From the NCBI GenBank assembly GCA_028820505.1, contig JAPPIT010000172.1, positions 1 through 62,779 on the forward strand: a DNA stretch of 62,779 nucleotides, given 5' to 3'. The DNA comes from Defluviicoccus sp. Lineage in GTDB: Bacteria; Pseudomonadota; Alphaproteobacteria; MPNO01. A program made the translations under genes and the position numbers. Below, piece after piece: positions 41,830 to 48,134 of the stretch; the stretch's first letter is position 1; each line of letters begins with the position of its first letter. The notes beneath the pieces were generated by a model. The model saw only the letters and a program-made list of their open reading frames with translations, did no database searches and was not told where the DNA came from.

Positions 41830-41970
41830 ATTCGGGGAACGACGGAAAGCCGCTATCCGCGACGTGGACTCTGTGATCCCGGACGCGTTCGGGCTATTGT
41901 TTTCCGTTTGCGGGGTGCTAATTCATACCGGCGCTCCGGGCGATTGCGCAAAGGTTCGGTGATACACGCG

Positions 41971-43602
41971 ATGGATGTCGGCACATTCCGGTTCGCCGCC
42001 GGGCCGCGAGGTTTCGTGCTCGCGGCGGCGGGCGCGGCGATGCTCTGCGCCGCGCTCGGCGGTCCCGCGTCCGCGCAGGACAGGCCGCCGCCGCTCTCGC
42101 CGCGCGCCCAGGCCGCCGACGCCAACGGGAACGGGGTGATCGACCGCGACGAGGCCGGTGGGCCGCTCGCCGCCAACTTCGACGAGATGGATTGCAACAA
42201 GAGCAATTCGCTCGACGGGAACGAGATCCGCGCTTTCTTCACCGGCGCCGGCTGTGCGTCGATCGCGACCGCGCCCGGCGGTTCGGCCCCGGCGCAGGCC
42301 AGGCCCGCCCCGCCGCCGCTTTCGGGCCGCGCCAAGGCGGCGGACGCCAACGGGAACGGGGTGATCGACCGCGACGAGGCGGGCGGGCCGCTGGCCGCCA
42401 ATTTCGACGAGATGGATTGCGACAAGAGCAATTCCCTCGATGCCAACGAGATCCGCGCCTTCTTCACCGGCGCCGGCTGCAAGTCGATCGCCGCGGCCGC
42501 GAAGCCCGCTGCTCCCGCCGCTTCCCCGCCGGCCGGACAGCGCAGCCCGCCCCGCCGCGGCGGGCGCCCGCCCGCGACGGTGACGCTCGACGACGTGATC
42601 GCGGAGCCGCTCGCCAAGACGACCCCCGTCATCGGGCGCCTTGTCGCGCGCCAGTCGGGCGTCGTGGCGAGCCAGGTGCGCGGCGCTGTGGTCGAGATGC
42701 GGGTGGATGTCGGCGACCGGGTCGAGCGGGGGCAGATCGTCGCCGTGCTGGCCTCCGGCCGGGTCCAGGCCGCGCGCGACCGAGCGGCCGCGTCGGTGGC
42801 GCGGTTCCGCGGCCTCGTCGCCGCGGCCGAGGCGGAGTACAGGAAAAAGCAGGGCGAGCTCAAGCGCCTCGGCCGCCTGCGCAAGTCGGCGGCGTTCTCG
42901 CGCGCGCGCTACGAGGACCTGGAGCGCGACGTGCAGGCGCGGCGCGGCGCGGTGGCGGACCGAAGGGGCCAGCTCCGGGAGGCGCAGGCGCAGCAGCGCC
43001 AGTCCGAGCTCGACCTCGCCGACACCAGGATCAAGGCGCCGTTCCCCGGCGTGGTGACGGAAAAGCACATCGACATCGGCACCTACCTCAATGTCGGCGC
43101 GCGGGTGGTCAGCATCCTCAACGACACCGATCTCGAGGCCGAGGCCGAGGTGCCCGCCGACCGGATCGACGCGCTCGCCCCGGGCGCGCTCGTCACCCTG
43201 ACCCTGGACGACGGCTCGCGCCACCGGGCCACGGTCCGCGCCATCGTCCCCACCGAGAACGTCCGCACCCGCACCCGCCCGGTGCGCTTCACCCCCAGCT
43301 TCGGCAAGACCCGGATGCGGCTGGCCGCCGACCAGAGCGTCACCGTGCTGATCCCCATCGGCGGCGGCCGGCAGGTCGCCACCGTCCACAAGGATGCGGT
43401 GGTGCGCGGCGGCGCCGATGCCTTCGTCTTCGTGGTCAAGGACAATCTCGCCCGACGGGTCAAGGTCCGGCTCGGCGACGGGCTGGGCGCGCGCTTCGTC
43501 GTGCTCGACGGCGTGAAGCCGGGACAGAAGGTGGTCATCCGCGGCAACGAGACGCTCGGCCGCGGCGGGCCGGTGCGCATCCGGGGCGGCGCGGGGAGCT
43601 GA
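41971..43602 (+). CDS. RND efflux periplasmic adaptor with duplicated EF-hand modules
   Basis: 543 residues. A signal peptide (cleavage near ASA-QD, residues 35-37) precedes two EF-hand modules at residues 48-95 and 123-170. Each has two 12-residue calcium loops, DANGNGVIDRDE and DCNKSNSLDGNE (or DCDKSNSLDANE). A Pro/Ala linker leads to a membrane-fusion-protein body: VDVGDRVERGQIVAVL (lipoyl half), a coiled-coil hairpin around 270-340, ADTRIKAPFPGVVTEKHIDIGTYL and the barrel region. Such adaptors link an inner-membrane RND pump to an outer-membrane channel. The EF-hands suggest calcium sensing. ATG at 41971 is chosen for the signal peptide. The permease follows 21 bases later. Confidence 0.85.
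   Translation: MDVGTFRFAAGPRGFVLAAAGAAMLCAALGGPASAQDRPPPLSPRAQAADANGNGVIDRDEAGGPLAANFDEMDCNKSNSLDGNEIRAFFTGAGCASIATAPGGSAPAQARPAPPPLSGRAKAADANGNGVIDRDEAGGPLAANFDEMDCDKSNSLDANEIRAFFTGAGCKSIAAAAKPAAPAASPPAGQRSPPRRGGRPPATVTLDDVIAEPLAKTTPVIGRLVARQSGVVASQVRGAVVEMRVDVGDRVERGQIVAVLASGRVQAARDRAAASVARFRGLVAAAEAEYRKKQGELKRLGRLRKSAAFSRARYEDLERDVQARRGAVADRRGQLREAQAQQRQSELDLADTRIKAPFPGVVTEKHIDIGTYLNVGARVVSILNDTDLEAEAEVPADRIDALAPGALVTLTLDDGSRHRATVRAIVPTENVRTRTRPVRFTPSFGKTRMRLAADQSVTVLIPIGGGRQVATVHKDAVVRGGADAFVFVVKDNLARRVKVRLGDGLGARFVVLDGVKPGQKVVIRGNETLGRGGPVRIRGGAGS
42112..42480 (+). repeat. 144-bp direct repeat encoding the EF-hand modules (225-bp period)
   Basis: Copies 42112-42255 and 42337-42480 are nearly identical at both DNA and protein level; the encoded 48 residues differ at only a few sites. 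This is a recent tandem duplication inside the adaptor gene. Confidence 0.9.
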
Positions 43603-43623
43603 TCGGATGAAGGGCGGTCCGGC

Positions 43624-46600
43624 ATGAACCTCATCCGCCTGTCCATCGAGCGCCCGATGGCGGTCGTCGCCATGGTGCTGATGATCATCCTGTTCGGCTA
43701 TGTCGCGCTGCAGCGGATCCCGATCCAGATGGCGCCCGACGTCCGCCAGCCGGTGCTTATCGTCACCACCAGCTGGCGCGGCGCCGCGCCCGCCGAAGTC
43801 GAACGCGAAATCGTCATTCCGCAGGAGGACGAGCTGAAGCGGCTCGAGGGCGTCCAGCGGGTGCTCTCCGAGGCAAGCCACGGCAGAGGCAAGATCACCC
43901 TCGAATTCGCGCCCGGCGTCAATTTCGACCGCATGCTGCTGCTGGTCTCCAACCGGCTCGACCGGGTGACCAACTATCCCGAGGAGGCGGAGGAACCGAC
44001 GCTCGGCACGTCGGGAACCGAGGACAACGCCATCGCCTGGTTCCTGTTCAGCCGGGTCGAGGGCAACGACACCGCGATGCTCGAATACGGCGACTTCCTG
44101 CGCGACGTGGTTCAGGAGCGCCTGGAACGCGTGCCCGGCGTCGGCGGGGTGAACATCTTCGGCGAGACCGAGCGCGAGATGCAGATCGTCATCGATCCGG
44201 AGCGGCTGGCCAGATACCGGCTCACCGTCGGTCAGGTCGTCGCCCGGCTGCGCGCCGCCAACGCCTCGATCACCGGCGGCGACATCGACGAGGGCAAGCG
44301 CCGCTACACGGTGCGCACCGAGGGCGATTTCGCGGAGACGAGCGAGGTCGAGGCGGTCGTCCTCCGGTCGAACGCGCAGGGCGCCGGGCTCGGCCGGGTG
44401 ACGGTGGGCGACATCGCGACCGTCACGCTCGCCTACAAGGAGGCGCGCGCGCGGATGTCGTCGAACGGCGTCCCGGCGCTCGCCCTCAACGTGACCCGCG
44501 AGCAGGGCGCCAACGTGATCGAGACCATGAAGCTGGTCCAGGAGACGATGGTCCGGCTTCGCGACGGCCCCATCAGGGAGAAGGGGCTGAAGGTGCGGCA
44601 GGTCTACGACGAGACCGACTACATCAACTCCTCGATCGCGCTGGTGATGCAGAACATCTATTTCGGCGGCGTTCTGGCGATCGTCATCCTTCTCGTGTTT
44701 CTGAGGTCGTGGCGTCCGACGGTCGTCATCGGGTTCGCCATTCCGGTCTCCGTGGTCGGCTCCTTCGTCGCCATGGCGCTGCTCGGGCGGTCGCTCAACG
44801 TGATCAGCCTCGCCGGCATCGCCTTTGCCGTCGGCATGGTCGTCGATGCCGCGATCGTCGTTCTGGAGAACATCTACCGCCTGCGCCAGAGCGGCATGGG
44901 CCGCGCCGAGGCCGCCTATCGCGGCACCGCCCAGATCTGGCCGGCGGTGCTGGTGTCGGCGCTCACCACGGTGATGGTGTTCATTCCGATCCTGATCATG
45001 GATCTGGAGGTCGGCCAGCTGTTCCGCGACATCGCCGTGGCGATATCGGTCTCGGTGCTGCTGTCTCTGCTGGTCTCGGTGACGCTGATCCCGGCGCTCT
45101 CCAACCGGATGCTGACGGGACGGATCCCGACGCTGAAGTCCCGGGTCCGCCTCCCCGTCATCGACGGCTTCGGGCGCGGCTTCGCCCTCTTCTGGCGCCA
45201 CTTCGCGCGCCTCGTCGTGCGTTCGAAGCTTCTGGCGATCGTCGTGGTCTGCGCGATCACCACGGCGGCGGGCGCGTTCGCCGTCGCCTACCTGCCCAAG
45301 CTCGACTATCTGCCGGTCGGCAACCGGAACTTCATCATCGGCTTCGTGCTGCCGCCGGCGGGCTACAATCTCGATACGACCGAAACGATCGCGCGCGGCG
45401 TGGAGAAAAAGACGCGCAAGCACTGGTCCGACGGCGCGCTTGCCGAGTCCGGAGACGCCCACCCGCCCGGAACCGACGAAGCGCAGAAGGTGATCGACCG
45501 GTTCTTCTTCGTCGCGTTGCGCGGACGCGCCTTCATCGCCGCCCGCCATGTCGACGACCAGAAGGCGGCGGAGCTGATCCCGATCATGCAGGCGCCCGCC
45601 CGCGAGGAACCGGGGACCCTCGGTTTCGTGTTTCAGCCGTCGCTGTTCGGCCGCTCGATCGGCACCGGCCGTTCGATCGGCATCGACATTTCCGGCCCCG
45701 ACCTGGAGACGATATTCGCGACCGGGCGGCAGGTGTTTTTCCGCACCATGGGGGCGCTGTCGCCGCGCGACGGCCACCGGGTCCGGCCGAGGCCGGCGCT
45801 CACGCTGGGAGAGCCCGAGGTCCGGGTGGTGCCGGACCGGGTCAAGCTCGCCGATAACGGGCTTTCGGCGCGCGACCTCGGCCAGGCGGTCGATGCCTTC
45901 AACGACGGGGTGCGCATCGCCGAGATCAACGTCGACGGCAAACGCATCGACCTCACGCTCAAGGGGCCGGCCCGGAACGAGGAATCGACCCAGTCGATCG
46001 GGGTGCTGCCGGTGGTCACGACGGACGGGCGCATCCTGCCGGTGCGCAGCCTGTCGGATGTCGCCGTCACCAACGGTCCGACCCAGATCCGGCGCATCGA
46101 CCGGGTGCGGACCGTGACGATGTCGGTGTCTCCGGCGCGCGAAATGCCGCTTCAGGCCGCGATGGACAAGATCCGCGACGAGGTGATCGAGCCGCTCCGG
46201 AAAAGCGGTCTGCCGGATGGGGTGCGCATACGGATGTCGGGCTCCGCCGACAAGCTGACGACGACCTGGAACGAGATCGTGCTCGATCTCGCGCTTGCCG
46301 TCGTCATCGTCTACCTGGTGATGGCGGTTCTGTTCGAGAGCTTCGTCTACCCGCTGATCGTGCTCCTGTCGGTGCCGATCGCCGCGGCCGGCGGGCTCGC
46401 CGGGCTGTCGCTCCTCAATACCTACGTCACCCAGCCGCTCGACATGCTGACCATGCTGGGATTCGTCATATTGGTCGGCATTGTCGTCAACAACGCGATT
46501 CTGCTGGTCCATCAGACGCTCTATCACATCCGCCATGACGGCATGGAGGTCGGCAAGGCGATCGAGGTGGCGACCGAATACCGCATCCGGCCCATCTTCA

Positions 46601-46833
46601 TGTCGACCCTGACGTCGATCTTCGGAATGCTGCCGCTGGTGGTGTTCCCCGGCGCCGGTTCCGAACTTTATCGCGGGCTCGGATCGGTGGTGCTCGGCGG
46701 GCTGTCGCTTTCCGCCGTCCTCACCATGGCGGTGGTGCCGCCGATGATGTCGATCACCGTCGGCGTTCTCGAAAAGCGGGCCAGGAAAAAAGCGGAACGC
46801 GCCGCGGAAGGCGCCATCGCGCCCGCCGAGTAA
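43624..46833 (+). CDS. RND efflux permease, hydrophobe/amphiphile type
   Basis: 1069 residues. The first transmembrane segment follows MNLIRLSIERPMAVVAMVLMII; the two-fold layout has pairs of large periplasmic loops and 12 predicted transmembrane helices, with IAFAVGMVVDAAIVVLENIYRLRQSG (motif around TM4, with the Asp pair used for proton relay) and GFVILVGIVVNNAILLVHQTLY in the second half. It pumps amphipathic compounds out by proton exchange; no substrate can be inferred. It forms an operon with the EF-hand adaptor, and no outer-membrane channel gene is nearby. Confidence 0.93.
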   Translation: MNLIRLSIERPMAVVAMVLMIILFGYVALQRIPIQMAPDVRQPVLIVTTSWRGAAPAEVEREIVIPQEDELKRLEGVQRVLSEASHGRGKITLEFAPGVNFDRMLLLVSNRLDRVTNYPEEAEEPTLGTSGTEDNAIAWFLFSRVEGNDTAMLEYGDFLRDVVQERLERVPGVGGVNIFGETEREMQIVIDPERLARYRLTVGQVVARLRAANASITGGDIDEGKRRYTVRTEGDFAETSEVEAVVLRSNAQGAGLGRVTVGDIATVTLAYKEARARMSSNGVPALALNVTREQGANVIETMKLVQETMVRLRDGPIREKGLKVRQVYDETDYINSSIALVMQNIYFGGVLAIVILLVFLRSWRPTVVIGFAIPVSVVGSFVAMALLGRSLNVISLAGIAFAVGMVVDAAIVVLENIYRLRQSGMGRAEAAYRGTAQIWPAVLVSALTTVMVFIPILIMDLEVGQLFRDIAVAISVSVLLSLLVSVTLIPALSNRMLTGRIPTLKSRVRLPVIDGFGRGFALFWRHFARLVVRSKLLAIVVVCAITTAAGAFAVAYLPKLDYLPVGNRNFIIGFVLPPAGYNLDTTETIARGVEKKTRKHWSDGALAESGDAHPPGTDEAQKVIDRFFFVALRGRAFIAARHVDDQKAAELIPIMQAPAREEPGTLGFVFQPSLFGRSIGTGRSIGIDISGPDLETIFATGRQVFFRTMGALSPRDGHRVRPRPALTLGEPEVRVVPDRVKLADNGLSARDLGQAVDAFNDGVRIAEINVDGKRIDLTLKGPARNEESTQSIGVLPVVTTDGRILPVRSLSDVAVTNGPTQIRRIDRVRTVTMSVSPAREMPLQAAMDKIRDEVIEPLRKSGLPDGVRIRMSGSADKLTTTWNEIVLDLALAVVIVYLVMAVLFESFVYPLIVLLSVPIAAAGGLAGLSLLNTYVTQPLDMLTMLGFVILVGIVVNNAILLVHQTLYHIRHDGMEVGKAIEVATEYRIRPIFMSTLTSIFGMLPLVVFPGAGSELYRGLGSVVLGGLSLSAVLTMAVVPPMMSITVGVLEKRARKKAERAAEGAIAPAE

Positions 46834-46913
46834 GCCGCTTGGCGGGGGCGTCGGGCGGCCGCTATAGTGATCCGCCGCTTCGTGAAACATGCCTATTGCG
46901 GAGGCCGCAGCGC

Positions 46914-48134
46914 ATGACCAGCCAGACCCCACGCGCCCTCGACGAGATCACGGTCAGGACGGACACCAGGGACGTTCTCGCCCACGCCGCGCGCGAGGCG
47001 AAGAAGCATCGCTTCGACGAGATGATGATCGTCGATGTCGACGCCCACATCACCGAGACCGCGTTCTGGGGCGAAATCGTCGAGCGCATCGACAGCGATG
47101 TCTATCGTCATATGGCGGCATCGTTCCGCGACCGGGTCGGCTCGCCGCCGGGTCTTCTCAACGCGACCCCCGGACTGCTCTATCAGGACGTGTTCGGCCG
47201 CATCCCGCATCAGCAGAGCCAGGCCGAGGCGATCGAGGATTCCGACGTCCATCGCCAGGTGACGCTCACCCGCCGGGCGATGGATTCGATGAGCATCGAC
47301 TACATGGTGGTCTTCCCCACCCCGATGCTCCTGCTCGGAACCCATCCCCAGCCCGAGGTCGAGGTCGAGCTGGCCTGGGCGTTCAACCGCTGGCTGACGG
47401 AGGAGGTGCTGCCCGAGGAGCCGCGGATGAAGGGGCTGTTGTACCTGCCCTTCAACACGCCGGAAGCCTGCCCGCGCTTCGTCGAGGAGTTCGGCGACAA
47501 GCCGGGATCGATGGGCTTCACCGTGACCTCGACCCGCTACCGGGCGGTTCACCACAACTCCTACATGCCGCTCTACGCCGCGCTCGAGGAGCGCAACCTG
47601 CCGCTCGCCTTCCATGCCGGGTTCAACTGGGAGGACGGCTCGATGGCGCAGCTCAACCGGTTCCTCTCGATGCACGCGCTGAGCTTCGTCCACTGCAACC
47701 TGATCCACATGACCAACTGGGTGGTCAACGGCCTGCCGGTGCGTTTCCCCAACCTCAAGGTGCTCTGGATCGAGAGCGGAATCGCCTGGCTGCCCTATCT
47801 CATGCAGCGGCTGGATTCCGAATACATGATGCGTTCGTCCGAGGCGCCGCTGCTGACCCGCAAGCCGAGCGAGTACATCAAGGACATGTACTTCTCGAGC
47901 CAGCCGCTCGAATCCCATCATCCCAAGCTGATGGAAGCGACCTTCGAGGCGATCGACGCGGAGACCCAGCTCCTCTGGTGCTCCGACTGGCCGCACTGGG
48001 ACTTCGATTCTCCGTCGGTGATCTGGGATCTGCCTTTCCTCAACCAGCGGCAGAAGCGCAGGATCATGGGCGAGAACGCCGCCGAGCTGTTCGGCCTCGA
48101 CAACCCCTATCTGGCGCGCGAGGCCGCCGAGTAA
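46914..48134 (+). CDS. Amidohydrolase family protein (ACMSD-like)
   Basis: 406 residues of the amidohydrolase_2 fold. DVDAHITE near residue 41 supplies the first metal-binding motif (DxH), FHAGFNWEDG the second, LIHMTNWVVNGLPVRFPNLKVLWIESGIAWLPYLMQRLDSEY the third region and CSDWPHWDFDSP the final Asp/His area. Relatives decarboxylate or hydrolyse aromatic acids such as 2-amino-3-carboxymuconate semialdehyde or resorcylate; the substrate is unknown. ATG at 46914 follows GGAGG. It is downstream of the RND pair by 80 bases. Confidence 0.82.
   Translation: MTSQTPRALDEITVRTDTRDVLAHAAREAKKHRFDEMMIVDVDAHITETAFWGEIVERIDSDVYRHMAASFRDRVGSPPGLLNATPGLLYQDVFGRIPHQQSQAEAIEDSDVHRQVTLTRRAMDSMSIDYMVVFPTPMLLLGTHPQPEVEVELAWAFNRWLTEEVLPEEPRMKGLLYLPFNTPEACPRFVEEFGDKPGSMGFTVTSTRYRAVHHNSYMPLYAALEERNLPLAFHAGFNWEDGSMAQLNRFLSMHALSFVHCNLIHMTNWVVNGLPVRFPNLKVLWIESGIAWLPYLMQRLDSEYMMRSSEAPLLTRKPSEYIKDMYFSSQPLESHHPKLMEATFEAIDAETQLLWCSDWPHWDFDSPSVIWDLPFLNQRQKRRIMGENAAELFGLDNPYLAREAAE

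Follow-up and report, generated by a model that had tools for sequence, protein, structure and literature searches.

The periplasmic adaptors (membrane fusion proteins) of RND efflux pumps, exemplified by AcrA, MexA and MexJ of the HlyD family (TIGR01730), are encoded in operons with an RND permease and have no EF-hand domain. Extra metal-binding domains, N- or C-terminal, have been described on the RND metal-efflux adaptors CusB, which employs methionines for Cu(I)/Ag(I), and SilB, which contains a CusF-like barrel. A review of adaptors covers the CusB N-terminus, which binds metal, as well as SilB's CusF-like domain and includes no EF-hand case (PMC4446572), and EF-hands are not mentioned in the available part of the text of a 2021 Chem Rev review (PMC8277102). 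Our literature search for EF-hands in conjunction with RND adaptors, membrane fusion proteins or HlyD yielded no EF-hand adaptor; this domain combination may already be present in automated annotation. Among bacterial envelope proteins with EF-hands, EfhP of Pseudomonas and other small periplasmic EF-hand proteins are stand-alone, and lanmodulin (LanM) contains periplasmic EF-hand pairs with a 24-residue loop spacing. The mitochondrial aspartate/glutamate and ATP-Mg/Pi carriers are transporters with an EF-hand domain at the N-terminus (PMC4250520), a works-like analogy only, given that these are unrelated eukaryotic transporters with the EF-hand domain on the carrier itself.

Here, we report the analysis of a locus from Defluviicoccus sp., contained in a stretch of 62,779 nucleotides (contig JAPPIT010000172.1; hereinafter, the window). 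It encodes an adaptor that shares with AcrA, MexA and MexJ the body fold, the family score and the operon with an RND permease but differs from these in its mature N-terminus, which is a metal-binding-type region of two modules (one in some relatives). As in CusB and SilB, the adaptor bears an extra domain of metal-binding type, at the same protein end as in CusB, but with predicted hard-cation EF-hands and a multidrug-type permease; in contrast to EfhP and its like, the modules are fused to a part of the pump. The features of the locus are the following.

41971..43602, + strand: RND periplasmic adaptor (membrane fusion protein), 543 aa, with N-terminal EF-hand modules (profiles, AF2 fold match)
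41971..42075, + strand: probable Sec signal peptide, residues 1-35 (sequence reading; helix 15-27 in the model)
42085..42266, + strand: EF-hand-pair module copy 1, repeat unit (direct repeat)
42118..42153, + strand: EF loop 1, DANGNGVIDRDE, residues 50-61 (sequence)
42190..42225, + strand: EF loop 2, DCNKSNSLDGNE, residues 74-85 (sequence)
42310..42491, + strand: EF-hand-pair module copy 2, repeat unit, 89% identical (direct repeat)
42343..42378, + strand: EF loop 3, DANGNGVIDRDE, residues 125-136 (sequence)
42415..42450, + strand: EF loop 4, DCDKSNSLDANE, residues 149-160 (sequence)
42481..42579, + strand: Pro/Ala/Arg-rich basic linker from module 2 to the body, predicted disordered (pLDDT <50 at residues 177-197; net charge about +6)
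42571..43599, + strand: adaptor body with barrel-sandwich/lipoyl, alpha-hairpin, beta-barrel and membrane-proximal parts (HlyD_3/HlyD_D23, RND_mfp, fold match)
43624..46833, + strand: cognate RND permease, 1069 aa, hydrophobe/amphiphile type (ACR_tran, 683 bits; adjoins the adaptor in the relatives examined)

The two genes form an operon, with the permease starting 21 bp downstream of the adaptor. The preliminary description of this DNA had called the first product an RND adaptor with calcium-binding modules placed after the signal peptide and before the adaptor body, and both the identity and the placement are borne out: Pfam HlyD_3 and HlyD_D23 match the body, and the NCBIfam family RND_mfp (TIGR01730) scores 168.2 bits at residues 205-537, against a curated cut-off of 94.9. 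The signal peptide is predicted to be cleaved at ASA|QD, and the adaptor signal peptide region contains no lipobox. Among the genes inspected, none adjoining the operon encodes an outer-membrane factor, which may be encoded elsewhere. The minus strand holds a 1669-aa open frame (41923-46932) that covers the entire operon in antisense and is most likely a shadow frame arising from GC-rich sequence.

The direct repeat comprises 182 nt, of which 162 are identical (89%), at a spacing of 225; its best 144-nt stretch starts at 42111 and matches at 132 positions. The period of 225 bp proposed originally thus stands, and the repeat extends slightly beyond the proposed 144-bp unit, which forms its core. 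Each module contains two 12-residue EF loops, 24 residues apart from start to start, with ligands at positions 1, 3, 5, 9 and 12 and paired helices, as in canonical EF-hand pairs. The two calcium loops ascribed to each copy are indeed well formed, four in all, and Pfam EF-hand_1, EF-hand_5, EF-hand_6 and EF-hand_7 all score above their cut-offs; these are predicted Ca2+ sites. A six-frame search of the same genome with PF13202 at E 0.001 missed the window adaptor, a limit of such a short model.

An AlphaFold2 (AF2) model of the full adaptor, built on an alignment with 21 relatives, is confident for the modules (pLDDT about 90) and for the body, with disordered stretches at residues 100-112 and 177-197; because the pTM is only 0.46, the placement of the modules against the body is unreliable. 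The body (residues 200-541) matches TMexCD1, AcrA, MacA and MexA with Z 19-21, the best match being the TMexCD1 adaptor (Z 21.4, 319 residues, rmsd 8.7), and contains the alpha-hairpin, lipoyl, beta-barrel and membrane-proximal domains of the adaptor fold. Folded alone, the module region reached a mean pLDDT of 70, lower than in the full model. It matches calmodulin, calcineurin B and polcalcin halves with Z 5-6, and the two-module model is matched best by 4n5x (Z 6.2), the Ca sensor at the N-terminus of the mitochondrial ATP-Mg/Pi carrier, a transporter controlled through this EF-hand domain. In the model, matches at Z 5-6 show an EF-hand fold and nothing beyond it.

This architecture is not unique to the window genome. 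Searching relatives, a set with a single genome for each species, and 385 genomes from the class Alphaproteobacteria, we found 22 distinct EF-module adaptors including that of the window, all from Alphaproteobacteria; 15 have two modules (one cut by a contig end) and seven have one. The carriers, which belong to a mostly uncultured group, include metagenome-assembled genomes (MAGs) titled Defluviicoccus sp., Rhodospirillaceae, Alphaproteobacteria and Proteobacteria. Two modules are encoded in each of the five genomes of the genus, and in the class sample, 7 of the 57 genomes with a close adaptor body have a module. The phylum-wide hits to the module (398 genomes) included no adaptor outside Alphaproteobacteria; apart from the window, they were short stand-alone EF-hand proteins in open frames of at most 351 aa. 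The plasmid search gave no module match and, among the matches listed, only EF-less adaptor bodies of at most 31% identity. An adaptor with four calcium sites had been considered unusual, which holds against RND adaptors at large but not within this clade, where the arrangement is conserved. EF-less orthologues of the same order (family f2, L015-L025) have Lys/Arg/Gly-rich N- and C-terminal adaptor tails, for example GKRRGGRRGRRG, and a MAG contig labelled Anaerolineae (Chloroflexota) encodes an adaptor-permease pair of the alphaproteobacterial type, through mis-binning or transfer (L048).

Across 34 distinct modules, the loop 1 ligands D1, N3, N5 and E12 are present in every one, and loop 2 retains D1 in 33, and D/N3 and E12 in all 34; since the search pattern favoured positions 1, 12 and part of 3-5, this conservation is not a fully independent test. 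Also essentially fixed are a G-P step following loop 1, an N-F pair ahead of loop 2 and an F-x-G behind loop 2. A pair of cysteines, one at position 2 of loop 2 and the other 20 residues on, is complete in 16 modules and wholly absent from the other 18. In the window, conservation pairs Cys75 with Cys95 (42253-42255) and Cys150 with Cys170 (42478-42480); the all-or-none pattern probably reflects a disulfide that staples each module in the window lineage. In the group with cysteines, the linkers behind the acidic modules are long and basic (38-50 residues, net charge +4 to +10). The cysteine-less adaptors have mostly short Gly/Pro linkers that are mostly near neutral, with 11-23 residues between the last loop and the first body strand (38-40 in two members), so the module is held close to the membrane-proximal domain in the short-linker forms.

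In a tree built from 65 adaptor bodies, a single clade with support 100/99 holds all 42 genuine EF-less sequences, which indicates that module presence changed once, long ago, as a gain or a loss, the root giving no direction. Two sequences labelled EF-less that fall outside this clade are not losses: one lies on a contig that starts inside the body (L012), and the other is frameshifted (L006). In the latter, from genome G002 of the same genus, the reading frame changes within the linker, between modules and body, through either an assembly error or a real disruption. The number of modules, by contrast with their presence, switched between one and two several times. The two modules of one protein are often each other's nearest relatives (L035, L039 and L040), and L033 and L006 retain a position-specific second module, supported at 100/99 in the protein tree; together, these patterns point both to repeated duplication or gene conversion and to longer-lived paralogues. 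In a strongly diverged adaptor of family f33 (L080), the second module has a loop spacing of 26 instead of 24 and looser loops, which suggests an independent or decaying copy.

The repeat in the window had been attributed to a recent tandem duplication, and this dating does not hold. With only 54 codons per module, the two window copies differ at dN 0.04 and dS 0.47, compared with dS of 0.26-0.75 when a window module is set against the one in the same position in a congener, and of 0.40-0.45 for the adaptor body. Divergence of the copies at the between-species level, together with two modules in every genome of the genus, implies that the duplication is at least as old as the species; the high DNA identity of the copies reflects constraint. 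It is L035, with a dS of 0.09 between its copies, that looks like a case of recent or freshly homogenised modules.

The permease follows the adaptor directly in all EF-adaptor loci long enough to show it. It scores as a drug/amphiphile type and not as a metal type: the multidrug-type model NF033617 gives 590 bits, whereas the metal-type model TIGR00914 gives 321.8 bits against a cut-off of 701.45, and a heavy-metal (HME) system of the CzcA/CusA type was rejected on this ground. In TM4 and TM10 (44725-44980 and 46351-46770), the window permease has VVDAAIVV where the MdtB type has VVDDAIVV, and VNNAILL in place of K-N-AI; the two replaced residues correspond to D408 and K940 of the AcrB proton relay. 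All EF-bearing and EF-less relatives checked have this same signature, so that these permeases form a distinct pump subgroup with a possibly altered coupling path. No signature in TM4 or TM10 that separates EF-bearing from EF-less pumps was found among these relatives, so that no adaptation of the pump to the module is visible.

AcrA- and MexA-like adaptors have both of their ends at the membrane-proximal domain, near the permease and the inner membrane. We propose, at about an even chance of being right, that the locus encodes a two-gene RND efflux system in which the N-terminal EF modules constitute a Ca-dependent collar, with a structural or a regulatory role, at the pump's membrane-proximal end. 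The position of the collar near the permease follows from the general adaptor architecture, by homology with AcrA and MexA, and from the short linkers. After export, the modules would become the mature N-terminus, and an adaptor hexamer would then present a collar of 12 EF-hands (with one module) or 24 (with two) near the inner membrane. Periplasmic Ca2+ would fill the loops and fold or stiffen the modules, each of them probably stapled by a disulfide in the window lineage, and the filled modules could support or modulate adaptor assembly and docking on the permease. Counting against this proposal, no adaptation to the module is visible in the permease, and periplasmic Ca2+ tracks the medium, so that the modules may always be occupied and serve a structural purpose only; the ease with which module number changes likewise fits a modest or buffering role better than a finely tuned gate. 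Membrane docking of the adaptor through its EF modules, raised in the preliminary description, is possible; the adaptor contains no extra membrane segment or lipobox that would favour it.

Among the competing interpretations, true Ca-gated efflux, also raised in the preliminary description, in which the modules would sense Ca2+ within the physiological range and switch pump activity or assembly through a conformational change, draws on the EF-hand pairs placed on short linkers at the pump-proximal end and on the existence of transporters regulated by EF-hand domains at their N-terminus, such as the aspartate/glutamate carriers (PMC4250520) and the fold match 4n5x. We consider it unlikely, because periplasmic calcium is not usually a controlled signal and the permease motifs inspected contain no co-varying change. 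The further-reaching version, whereby Ca-gated tripartite pumps throughout the clade would sense external Ca with a collar of 12 to 24 EF-hands, its dosage tuned by duplication and homogenisation, seems to us distinctly unlikely. Nor do we much favour, at a barely higher probability, the opposite notion that the modules serve as passive spacers, or are what is left of a small periplasmic EF-hand protein fused to the adaptor, and contribute nothing to efflux: copy number does change, linkers vary widely, and orthologues that lack EF-hands function with a permease of the same type, but the ligand residues have remained intact over deep divergence, and the dN between the window copies is low relative to dS.

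Two readings concern the metal. In CusB, the N-terminus, the same protein end as here, binds metal that it receives from CusF, and it activates CusA (PMC4446572), and the EF modules might by analogy capture a metal and pass it to the pump for export; this is improbable in view of the permease (590 bits for NF033617 versus only 322 for TIGR00914) and of the EF-less orthologues served by the same permease type. That the modules bind lanthanides, in the manner of lanmodulin, is suggested by a match to NF053806 (LanM; E 2e-8), by LanM being the only PDB sequence match to the module region and by the shared 24-residue distance between loop starts. The NF053806 score, however, is 34.3 bits against a cut-off of 135, and ordinary small EF-hand proteins encoded in the genus (L001 and L062) have the 24-residue spacing as well. 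Proline is missing from loop position 2, where the 34 modules have A/T/K/S or C/K/L/T/R/A (the six most common residues), although some true LanM loops also lack this proline (PMC9260416). Acidic ligands are fewer than in LanM, positions 3 and 5 of loop 1 being Asn and not Asp, the modules are fused to an adaptor, and this genome encodes no XoxF-type PQQ alcohol dehydrogenase that scores above the cut-off. Membership in the lanmodulin family was rejected on the score, the missing proline and the missing enzyme, and we regard a lanthanide module as very improbable.

In the literature searched, extra metal-binding domains on RND adaptors are described only for soft heavy metals. A Ca-binding module long kept on a non-metal pump would tie envelope calcium to efflux in a compact and testable system, for which the natural one- and two-module variants, together with the EF-less orthologues that have the same permease type, provide ready-made controls.
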